Source: Betaproteobacteria bacterium
Lineage (GTDB): Bacteria; Pseudomonadota; Gammaproteobacteria; Burkholderiales; Burkholderiaceae_A
Assembly (NCBI GenBank): GCA_016868255.1
Contig: VGHN01000008.1
Span: forward strand, 1 to 64,000
Reading direction: 5' to 3'
Length of the DNA: 64,000 nucleotides
The position numbers and the translations under genes were made by a program. Shown one piece after another: positions 30,343 through 32,528 of this stretch. Position 1 is the stretch's first letter. The number at the start of each line of letters is the position of its first letter. Below the pieces are notes generated by a model that was not told the origin of the DNA, did not search any database, and saw nothing but the letters and a program-made list of their open reading frames with translations.

Positions 30343-30522
30343 TCAGTGCAGGATGCCGATGAGCGCAGCGCCCGCAACAATGGTGTAACCAAAACCAAAT
30401 AGCTCGGCATGGTGCCGGGCCACACGCTTTTGCACGCCTTTGTTGTTCTCGAGATACCAGTGGTGAATGGTGGGCAGGGCCACCATGAGCACAATGCCCA
30501 TTGCAAACAGAAAAGTGGCCAT
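30343..30522 (-). CDS. Small membrane protein at the end of the puc operon
   Basis: A 59-residue ORF (starts MATFLFAMGIVLMVALP, ends GFGYTIVAGAALIGILH). Two hydrophobic stretches, about residues 3-17 and 44-58, flank a charged, His-rich middle (HHWYLENNKG, RVARHHAE). AGAGGT lies 9 bases upstream of ATG 30522, and the start is 6 bases past the stop of the next small gene, so it looks like a real, co-transcribed gene. I do not recognise a family. Position after pucC suggests a link to antenna assembly, which is inference. Confidence 0.65.
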   Translation of the reverse strand: MATFLFAMGIVLMVALPTIHHWYLENNKGVQKRVARHHAELFGFGYTIVAGAALIGILH

Positions 30523-30527
30523 GTGAA

Positions 30528-30614
30528 TTACCTCTTGGGGCGGTTATACCGGTTGGCCAGCATGAACACGCCAACCACCAGGATAAAGACCAACAGAATG
30601 TGTTTGATTTCCAT
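30528..30614 (-). CDS. 28-residue single-helix membrane peptide in the puc operon
   Basis: MEIKHILLVFILVVGVFMLA plus a basic tail (NRYNRPKR): one membrane helix with positive C-terminal charge. AAGGGG lies about 8 bases before ATG 30614. The gene is embedded out of frame in the last 71 bases of pucC and is followed 5 bases later by the 59-residue gene. Its size and shape resemble accessory single-helix polypeptides found in some light-harvesting complexes, but no family was recognised. Confidence 0.6.
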   Translation of the reverse strand: MEIKHILLVFILVVGVFMLANRYNRPKR

Positions 30615-32040
30615 TTGAATGCCCCTTTTCTATTGGGATGTGTGGGGAATGCTTGTGGGGGGGGAACAGGCCGGATCTTAGCAGAGGGGTTATGAGGAAA
30701 AGCGTCACGACAAGAAGCGTTATTTCCAGCCCGTAGACCACAGCGTAGGCGTTTGCTGCCGAGAGCCCAGTGGAGGCAATGTCACGAATGAGGCCGCCCG
30801 CTGCCATGCCGACGCCCGCGGCCGTGGCCTGCACAGCGCCCCAGAGTCCAAGGGCCAGCCCACTGCGTCCGGCCGGTGCAAGAAGCATGGTGGTGGTGAG
30901 GCTGCCATGGCCGAAGAGTCCCACCGAGAGGCCAATGAGGCAGACCCCCACTGAGAAGAGTCCGGTCGATTCCGTGGGCACCGCCAAGAGCACGCAGGCC
31001 AGGGCAGGCACACCCACAAAAAGGCCGATGGCCGACATGCGAAAAGGATCGGCTCCGCGAGAGAGCACGTAAGAGGCCAGGCCAAAGCCCAGTATTCCGC
31101 CCACTGCCAAGAGGCCTGTGAGCCGCGTGGTTTGGGAGACACTCAGGCCGAGCACCTCGCCCCCATAGGGCTCGAGCAAGACATCCTGCATGGTGAGTGC
31201 AAGGGTGCCCAGGCCAATCACCCAGAGCCAGCGCAGGCCCAAACGCGTCTGCGCCATGGCCCTCATCGCGTCGCCAAAGCGGTCCTTGGCCATCTCGGCC
31301 TTGTGCTCTTCGACGCTCAATTGGGGACGCTCTCGGGGCTCTTGCTTCCAGATGGCAATGGTGTTGAGCACCAGCGTGAGAACAGCTGCGGCCTGAATGG
31401 CCTGAATCAGTCGACCATGGCTGTAGGTTTCGAGCGCCTGTCCAAAAGCGGCGGCACTCAGCAGCATGCCCAGCAGCAACATCACGTACATGAGGCCCAC
31501 CACCTTGGGTTTGCTCTCTTCTGCGGCCAGGTCGGTGGCCAAGGCCAGGCCGGCGGTTTGAACGGTGTGCAGCCCGGCGCCTACAAGGAGAAATGCCACC
31601 GCTGCTGCCAAGTGCCCAACCCAGATTGGCGCGCTGGCAGACTGGCCGGCCCCCGCAAGCACGAGCAATGCAAAGGGCATGACGGCAAAGCCACCAAACT
31701 GCAACATGCTGCCGCGCCATATAAAAGGTACTCGGCGCCAGCCGAGTTCCGAGCGGTGCTGATCGGAGCGATGTCCAATAAAAGCCCGAAAGGGTGCGAA
31801 GAGAACGGGCAGGGCCACCATAATGGCCACCAGAGAGGCGGGCACATGGAGTTCGACAATCATGACCCGATTGAGTGTTCCGACGAGGAGCACCAGGGCC
31901 ATGCCCACAGAGACTTGAAACAACGAGAGCCGCAGCAGCCGAGAGAGGGGCAGGTCGGGGCTGGCCGCATCGGCGAAAGGCAGAAAACGCGGGCCCAGGG
32001 CCGCGAGTGCTTGAATCCAGGGACGTGGCGTTCTGGCCAT
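30544..32040 (-). CDS. pucC: Light-harvesting 2 assembly protein PucC
   Basis: A 498-residue BCD/PucC-family membrane protein with about 12 helices (RLSLFQVSVGMALVLLVGT, LNRVMIVELHVPASLVA). It promotes assembly of the pucBA antenna encoded just upstream. Helix 12 ends near VTLFLITPLL, and the last roughly 35 residues, read through the 28-residue gene in another frame, do not look like PucC; the annotated stop is nonetheless the first one in frame. Start ATG 32040 has only a weak ribosome binding site. Confidence 0.92.
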   Translation of the reverse strand: MARTPRPWIQALAALGPRFLPFADAASPDLPLSRLLRLSLFQVSVGMALVLLVGTLNRVMIVELHVPASLVAIMVALPVLFAPFRAFIGHRSDQHRSELGWRRVPFIWRGSMLQFGGFAVMPFALLVLAGAGQSASAPIWVGHLAAAVAFLLVGAGLHTVQTAGLALATDLAAEESKPKVVGLMYVMLLLGMLLSAAAFGQALETYSHGRLIQAIQAAAVLTLVLNTIAIWKQEPRERPQLSVEEHKAEMAKDRFGDAMRAMAQTRLGLRWLWVIGLGTLALTMQDVLLEPYGGEVLGLSVSQTTRLTGLLAVGGILGFGLASYVLSRGADPFRMSAIGLFVGVPALACVLLAVPTESTGLFSVGVCLIGLSVGLFGHGSLTTTMLLAPAGRSGLALGLWGAVQATAAGVGMAAGGLIRDIASTGLSAANAYAVVYGLEITLLVVTLFLITPLLRSGLFPPHKHSPHIPIEKGHSNGNQTHSVGLYPGGWRVHAGQPV

Positions 32041-32068
32041 GTCGGGCGAGTGGCTAGTGGATTCCTAG

Positions 32069-32084
32069 GCGATAAGAAGATCGC
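32069..32084 (-). terminator. Short hairpin between pucA and pucC
   Basis: GCGAT-AAGAAG-ATCGC forms a 5-bp stem with a 6-base loop in the 91-base gap after pucA. In other puc operons a hairpin here raises pucBA mRNA over pucC. The stem is short and there is no T tract, so a partial terminator or RNA-stabilising role is only a suggestion. Confidence 0.3.
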
Positions 32085-32131
32085 ACAACAGCAGAGGCAC
32101 GGGGCCTTCGCCGTTGCGCGATGTCATGCAA

Positions 32132-32359
32132 TTACATCCGGCTCGACGAGGCCTGCTCGGTCGAAGCCACAGCCGCCTTCTCAGCAGGCAGTGCCTGTGA
32201 GACTTTGGCAGGTGGTCCACCATTCAGGAATCGAGGAACCCAGTCGGTGTGCGTGAGCAGGGCCACATGCACTGCAAACGAACCGACGGCGACGGCGCCA
32301 ATGATCAGGGGGACGCCAAGGGAGGGCCTCACAACGCACCACAATTTACCGTAGATCAT
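32132..32359 (-). CDS. pucA: Light-harvesting 2 alpha subunit, B800-820-like
   Basis: A 75-residue antenna polypeptide: MIYGKLWCVV start, one membrane helix with the bacteriochlorophyll ligand His31 (SFAVHVALLTHTDW), then VPRFLNGG. Positions 44 and 45 are Phe-Leu, where B800-850 LH2 has Tyr-Trp; this pair is known from the B800-820 (LH3) complex of Rhodoblastus/Rhodopseudomonas acidophila 7050, so blue-shifted absorption is expected. A roughly 27-residue Ala/Ser-rich tail follows the usual end. AAAGGAG precedes ATG 32359. Confidence 0.94.
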   Translation of the reverse strand: MIYGKLWCVVRPSLGVPLIIGAVAVGSFAVHVALLTHTDWVPRFLNGGPPAKVSQALPAEKAAVASTEQASSSRM

Positions 32360-32375: not shown

Positions 32376-32528
32376 TCAGCCTAACCAAGGCGAATAGATA
32401 TAAGCCAAGAGGTGGGCAAACGCCGCAATCATTCCAAAGAATTGTGTCCCTTGGATGAGGTTGCGGTGAAGTTCCTCCGACTCAGCCTCCGTTAAGCCCG
32501 TGGGCCATACCTTTTGGTTGTCAGACAT
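32376..32528 (-). CDS. pucB: Light-harvesting 2 beta subunit
   Basis: A 50-residue antenna polypeptide: WPTGLTEAESEELHRNLIQG followed by a membrane helix with the bacteriochlorophyll ligand His in AAFAHLLAYIYSPWLG, the standard beta C-terminus. The His in ELHRN is typical of LH beta chains. AAGGAG lies about 9 bases before ATG 32528. pucA starts 16 bases after its stop. It heads the pucB-pucA-pucC operon. Confidence 0.95.
   Translation of the reverse strand: MSDNQKVWPTGLTEAESEELHRNLIQGTQFFGMIAAFAHLLAYIYSPWLG

Follow-up and report, generated by a model that had tools for sequence, protein, structure and literature searches.

The LH2 antenna is mostly described as composed of alpha and beta polypeptides, and the additional antenna subunits considered here have emerged through structures. 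Behind pucC in the puc operon of Rhodobacter capsulatus lie the genes of PucD and PucE, larger proteins that are held to stabilise LH2. Two peptides of purple-bacterial LH1, the LH1-gamma of Blastochloris viridis and a gamma-like one in Rhodopila globiformis, are very short single helices with a periplasmic N-terminus (PMC10212510, PMC9640540). The Rhodopila peptide has 22 residues (PMC9640540), its gene is unannotated and located far from the photosynthesis genes (PMC10212510, PMC9640540), and the known gamma chains resemble one another little (PMC9640540). LH2-gamma of Rhodopseudomonas palustris, likewise an extra antenna polypeptide that went unnoticed before cryo-EM, is an extended ribbon of about 10 kDa that contains six EYKGHSGHPLIKQEG-like repeats and is reported only in Rhodopseudomonas (PMC9618040). 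Protein-U of Rhodobacter sphaeroides, formerly a hypothetical protein, is a two-helix hairpin of 53 residues in the LH1-RC complex with both ends cytoplasmic (PMC8564508).

In the window, that is, the whole stretch of 64,000 nucleotides analysed here, the puc operon of a betaproteobacterium ends in two small genes, encoding a 28-residue protein with a single helix and a 59-residue protein with two. The 28-residue protein is, like LH1-gamma and the Rhodopila peptide, a very short single helix, the periplasmic N-terminus being in its case only expected; those two belong to LH1, whereas the 28-residue family goes with LH2, and the Rhodopila gene lies apart from the photosynthesis genes, while the gene described here sits directly behind pucC. 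A profile of the family compared with all PDB chains gives a best hit at E 2.9, to ribonuclease kappa, and thus no relation to the known gamma chains. Equivalence to the Rhodopseudomonas LH2-gamma was rejected, as size and sequence differ and the 28-residue protein is one short hydrophobic helix with no such repeat. With PucD and PucE the likeness is the position behind pucC, and these two proteins are larger. The outer ring (LHh) of Gemmatimonas was also considered and discarded: the portion of its description at hand names alpha, beta, RC-S and RC-U, and no such peptide.

The puc operon of the window

The first-pass annotation of this DNA placed two small membrane-protein frames, spaced by five bases, at the end of the operon, and both are confirmed, at 30614-30528 and 30522-30343 of the minus strand, with the 5-base gap between them. 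The features of the operon, in the order of transcription, are the following:

32376..32528, minus strand: pucB, LH2 beta polypeptide, 50 residues (Pfam LHC 35 bits, cut-off 23)
32132..32359, minus strand: pucA, LH2 alpha polypeptide of the MIYGK type, 75 residues (Pfam LHC 33.8 bits, cut-off 23; aligns with the LH2 alphas of related loci)
32041..32131, minus strand: hairpin with a 14-bp outer stem in the pucA-pucC spacer, possible attenuator or mRNA-end stabiliser (-32.1 kcal/mol, z -2.96)
30670..32040, minus strand: pucC, MFS-type assembly factor of LH2; its open frame continues to 30544 in the sequence as read (Pfam PUCC 475.7 bits)
30657..30664, minus strand: eight consecutive C close to the pucC end, candidate indel (sequence)
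30622..30629, minus strand: Shine-Dalgarno-like AAAAGGGG ahead of the 28-residue gene (sequence)
30528..30614, minus strand: gene of the 28-residue single-helix microprotein (MEIKHILLVFILVVGVFMLANRYNRPKR), member of the new family (profile, jackknife, pN/pS, co-occurrence)
30530..30534, minus strand: Shine-Dalgarno-like GAGGT of the 59-residue gene, overlapping the stop of the 28-residue gene (sequence)
30343..30522, minus strand: gene of the 59-residue two-helix protein, genus-specific at the puc locus (homologues in three congeners, pN<pS, two-helix model)

The antenna pair is taken as LH2 on three grounds: its alpha can be aligned with LH2 alphas, it lies next to pucC, and a second antenna pair is present in the genome, on contig C13. 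One point counts against this assignment: NCBIfam names the beta polypeptide (32376-32528) LH1 beta at 66.1 bits (cut-off 61), which is likely to lead to misnaming. The genes that NCBIfam names acsF and puhE lie on the plus strand and run towards the minus-strand puc genes.

The hairpin between pucA and pucC is equalled in 2 of 200 shuffles, and the corresponding spacers of relatives reach z<=-2 in 23 of 31 cases (mononucleotide shuffles). In many carriers of the 28-residue family, such as L040, L044, L064 and L088, it is often followed by T when inspected by eye, giving it a terminator-like appearance. Since the 28-residue gene sits behind this hairpin, it is likely to be expressed together with pucC and below pucBA.

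Both small frames were said to follow pucC, which holds for their order; as read in the window, the pucC frame runs on to 30544 and overlaps the 28-residue frame by 71 nt. Homology of pucC reaches to about 30670, and another frame at this end meets a TAG stop 15 nt ahead of the 28-residue start. In loci of the same genus pucC and the 28-residue gene are separated by similar gaps, of 20 nt (L009), 15 nt (L013) and 21 nt (L014). A one-base indel in the run of C, whether true or from the assembly, is a plausible explanation, and whatever the end of pucC, the 28-residue frame is unaffected. In three of 35 loci (L017, L048, L078) the start codon of the 28-residue family overlaps the pucC stop by four bases.

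A family of single-helix microproteins behind pucC

The best 80 of 586 pucC loci from a collection of species genomes were selected by PucC alignment, and a listing of hydrophobic frames behind pucC revealed a short single-helix frame in many betaproteobacterial loci. An alignment of 36 members was turned into a profile. These members were drawn from the loci later counted and had trained the profile, so a jackknife was done in which each member was compared with a profile of the sequences less than 60% identical to it. The member ranked top among all six-frame ORFs of its own locus in 36 of 36 cases, 34 of them at E<1e-3 (Z 3000). Outside the family, scores reached E 1.7 at best, in 47 loci taken as non-betaproteobacterial on the basis of record titles, some of which are clearly wrong (e.g. 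L116); seven gene-free betaproteobacterial or convergent loci (L065, L072, L073, L094, L107, L112, L117) were kept out of this set, and the profile has no match in them. Judging by their length, three contigs appear under two labels (L011 and L041, L043 and L140, L112 and L153).

Selection on the frame points in the same direction. In 189 of 190 pairs of members (55-97% identical) pN is lower than pS, with means of 0.29 vs 0.67, whereas one shifted frame gives 104 and the other 16 of 190; these pairs are non-independent, and the comparison was ungapped, beginning at the start codon, which in L010 and L023 lies outside the 36-member alignment. Of 35 family starts, 25 have a strong Shine-Dalgarno core ahead of them, against 2.1% of random positions, and 34 have a looser core, against 13%. 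A chance frame is rejected on the basis of pN/pS, the enrichment of ribosome sites and the jackknife, and the 28-residue frame is a protein-coding gene of a new family.

Members mostly have 28-34 residues, with four longer ones of 37-48, and follow the consensus M....ILLI.W.VV..F.LAN.FNRP.K with a mean column identity of 34%, which makes them far more variable than the near-constant LH2 alphas. The predicted model of the member in L113 has one helix. The C-terminal end is basic in 34 of 36 members, and the residues after the helix carry a higher net charge than those preceding it in 34 and an equal one in two (means +2.94 vs +0.08), so an orientation with the N-terminus outside and the C-terminus inside is expected from the charge rule. 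When a conserved face of the helix was looked for, none was found, 1940 of 5000 shuffles scoring equally high.

Pfam and NCBIfam hold no match over cut-off for either protein of the window or for four homologues, and no description of the 28-residue family was found in the open-access literature searched. The first-pass annotation expected automated annotation to miss both genes; common gene finders ignore genes of less than 90 nt, which would affect the 87-nt gene and not the 180-nt gene behind it. The 28-residue gene shows that genes below 100 nt can escape notice even in a classical operon.

Distribution of the 28-residue family

By the profile, a gene of the family lies behind pucC in 26 of the best 80 of 586 pucC loci, the copy in L042 being cut by the contig end. 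Conservation in relatives had been named beforehand as the test for the small frames, and the 28-residue frame passes it. By antenna type, the gene accompanies 25 of 30 LH2 alphas starting with MIY and none of 46 other alphas. Judging from record titles, carriers include Limnohabitans (L088, L092), Polynucleobacter (L062) and metagenome-assembled genomes of Rhodoferax (L066) and Rubrivivax (L113); the host group has freshwater members such as Limnohabitans.

The same picture is obtained from 399 genomes of the order, among which 29 have an LH2 alpha and 46, these 29 included, have a PucC-family gene (1e-60). At E<=0.001 the profile matches in 21 genomes: 20 are LH2 carriers, in all of which the match adjoins the PucC match by coordinates, and the remaining one (G072, 4.6e-5), with neither LH2 alpha nor PucC, is taken as false. 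Two divergent copies, in G282 and G372, were recognised by inspection (E 4.5e-6 and 0.0013 with the profile on their loci alone), which brings the total to 22 of the 29 genomes with LH2 alpha. Members are missing from all 17 genomes that have a PucC-family gene and no LH2 alpha.

Among the seven other LH2 genomes, pucC is convergent to pucBA in five, and all five lack the gene; G272 has a co-directional pucC with no member of the family behind it, and in G346 no LH2 pucC was found. Whole-genome searches of 43 LH2 genomes lacking the gene behind pucC, one of them probably entered twice (L112 and G239), found none elsewhere, while positive controls were recovered in 3 of 3 cases. No such gene stands behind the PucC of alpha- and gammaproteobacteria or behind the convergent betaproteobacterial type, so PucC does not need the 28-residue protein generally. 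Co-directional pucBAC operons without the gene are those of G272, L094 and three Polynucleobacter-type loci, all within carrier groups. On a quick PucC tree of 74 hand-chosen rows (44 with and 30 without the gene), 4 changes suffice to explain the trait, vs 23.4 in shuffles; since the support of many deep forks is weak, the tree is compatible with a single origin as well as with several. A plasmid collection yielded 10 records, none with a PucC of more than 60% identity.

A rule by which the peptide would go with Phe44-Leu45 of the alpha polypeptide was discarded: the pair, which we take to be typical of blue-shifted B800-820 antennas, is shared by 24 of 25 carriers with 20 alphas that lack the gene. 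The alpha of the carrier L142 has Tyr-Tyr at 44/45.

The 59-residue protein

A search for the pair of genes behind pucC in other betaproteobacteria had been suggested, and it shows the smaller gene only to be widespread. Among 100 relatives searched, the 59-residue gene follows the 28-residue gene in the window's genome and in G001, G004 and G006, the homologues at the puc loci of these three congeners having E values of 5.5e-10, 1.1e-7 and 0.005. No further genome of the genus has an LH2-type pucC that is free of a contig break: the gene is cut in G010, and the other six have lower-identity PucC relatives or none. Because no puc locus outside the window's genus was found to hold the 59-residue gene, the pair is genus-specific and only the smaller gene is widespread. 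The evidence for the 28-residue gene is stronger than the first-pass annotation could know, and the case for the 59-residue gene is narrower.

The 59-residue frame has pN lower than pS in 6 of 6 pairs, with synonymous sites near saturation (pS 0.69-0.83). Good ribosome sites had been claimed for both frames, as is true in the window, where AAAAGGGG and GAGGT precede the two starts; an evident core is present in only two of the four 59-residue copies, those of the window and L014. Structure prediction gives, with modest confidence (mean pLDDT 72, pTM 0.41), a hairpin of two helices spanning residues 2-27 and 32-58, in agreement with the two helices proposed before, and the description as His-rich fits the window copy only: one position is His in three of four copies and Tyr in the fourth, and the rest are not kept. 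As the histidines are not conserved, pigment binding through them is unsupported. The proposal that both proteins are candidate LH2 subunits or assembly factors suits the distribution of the 28-residue protein; the 59-residue protein is confined at the puc locus to one genus, related to an anchor and variable in its histidines.

The hairpin fold is shared with Protein-U. A basic stretch in the loop of the 59-residue protein suggests that both its ends lie outside, whereas those of Protein-U are cytoplasmic; no PDB chain, and hence none related to Protein-U, matches the 59-residue protein at E<=10. Its best sub-threshold family match is HGSNAT_cat (15.2 vs 22 bits). The 59-residue protein is related to the anchor at the N-terminus of a thioredoxin protein of the TlpA/ResA kind in G001 (P0003, L157 5806-6438), the rest of which is AhpC-TSA: the L014 copy is 52% identical to this anchor over 42 residues, and the four-copy profile aligns with it at an hhalign probability of 95.8. 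The 59-residue protein thus resembles a membrane anchor by sequence, consisting of the two helices only, with no thioredoxin domain and its CxxC. It may be a genus-specific addition to the puc transcript with an auxiliary role, sharing ancestry with the two-helix anchor. Free-standing small two-helix proteins related to the anchor are also encoded away from puc, near 1501-1656 of L164 (G026) and near 1501-1647 of L165 (G001), and a wider family of such proteins may exist.

Possible functions of the 28-residue protein

The distribution gives good support to a function tied to LH2, and the 28-residue protein probably helps to build or stabilise this antenna. It would represent a family of microproteins with a single helix, so far undescribed, that is dedicated to the betaproteobacterial pucB-pucA-pucC lineage of LH2 with an MIY-type alpha; tied to one lineage and encoded beside an assembly factor, it is a specific candidate for an LH2 subunit or a factor of the PucC step. 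Our preferred reading, to which we give a probability of roughly 45%, is that of an LH2-dedicated helix working with PucC in antenna assembly. The protein would insert into the membrane as one helix, with the N-terminus outside and the basic C-terminus in the cytoplasm, and its synthesis would be at the level of PucC rather than that of the antenna polypeptides, given the place of its gene behind the hairpin. Next to PucC, described as an assembly factor (PMC4949548), it might hold or hand on alpha-beta units during LH2 assembly, and it would be sub-stoichiometric to the finished ring. This role is favoured because of the place behind the hairpin, the overlap with pucC in some loci and the fast evolution of the family. 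Against it, the other PucC types do without the gene, LH2 carriers with co-directional pucBAC and no such gene exist, the helix shows no conserved face by the shuffle test, and the link to PucC is confounded with the link to LH2 type.

The same low expression suggested by the position behind hairpin and pucC, and a sequence far more variable than alpha (34% mean column identity), speak against a gamma-like subunit of the finished LH2 ring, as does the lack of any match among PDB chains, LH1-gamma structures included as far as deposited. Such a subunit, a helix antiparallel to those of alpha and beta that lies between beta helices or closes the ring, and that, like LH1-gamma, makes it stiffer or adjusts its absorption, is nonetheless a serious possibility, if short of even odds: the size of mostly 28-34 residues, the single helix and the expected N-out orientation resemble those of LH1-gamma and the 22-residue Rhodopila peptide, the family goes with one LH2 alpha type, and the carrier genus Limnohabitans (L088, L092) has an unusual antenna at 799-813 nm (PMC12654162). 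It is slightly more doubtful that betaproteobacterial LH2 rings, for instance those of Limnohabitans, carry an overlooked third subunit, a gamma chain of one helix and about 30 residues, to which the lineage may partly owe its distinct architecture or spectrum. An action on another LH2-linked membrane target, such as a protease, quinone traffic or a regulator, is unlikely; regulation of other membrane proteins is a frequent role of small proteins with one helix, but here the gene adjoins pucC in all 20 genome matches, and where a PucC-family gene occurs and LH2 alpha does not, it is missing in 17 of 17 genomes. That both frames are chance ORFs or only RNA-level elements would agree with the 71-nt overlap in the window and with the two 59-residue copies that have no evident ribosome site, and is very improbable in view of the frame-specific selection, ribosome sites, jackknife and co-occurrence of the smaller frame, and of the six pN<pS pairs and the congener match at E 5.5e-10 of the larger.

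Other small frames behind pucC

Other small hydrophobic frames are seen in the same position. The Polynucleobacter-type loci L065, L073 and L107 have no microprotein behind pucC and show three successive small hydrophobic frames of 78, 62 and 51 residues. In L142, L144, L149 and L094, a hydrophobic frame of about 80-106 residues lies behind pucC on the opposite strand, convergent to it, with a shared-looking FG..(I/L)SG motif.
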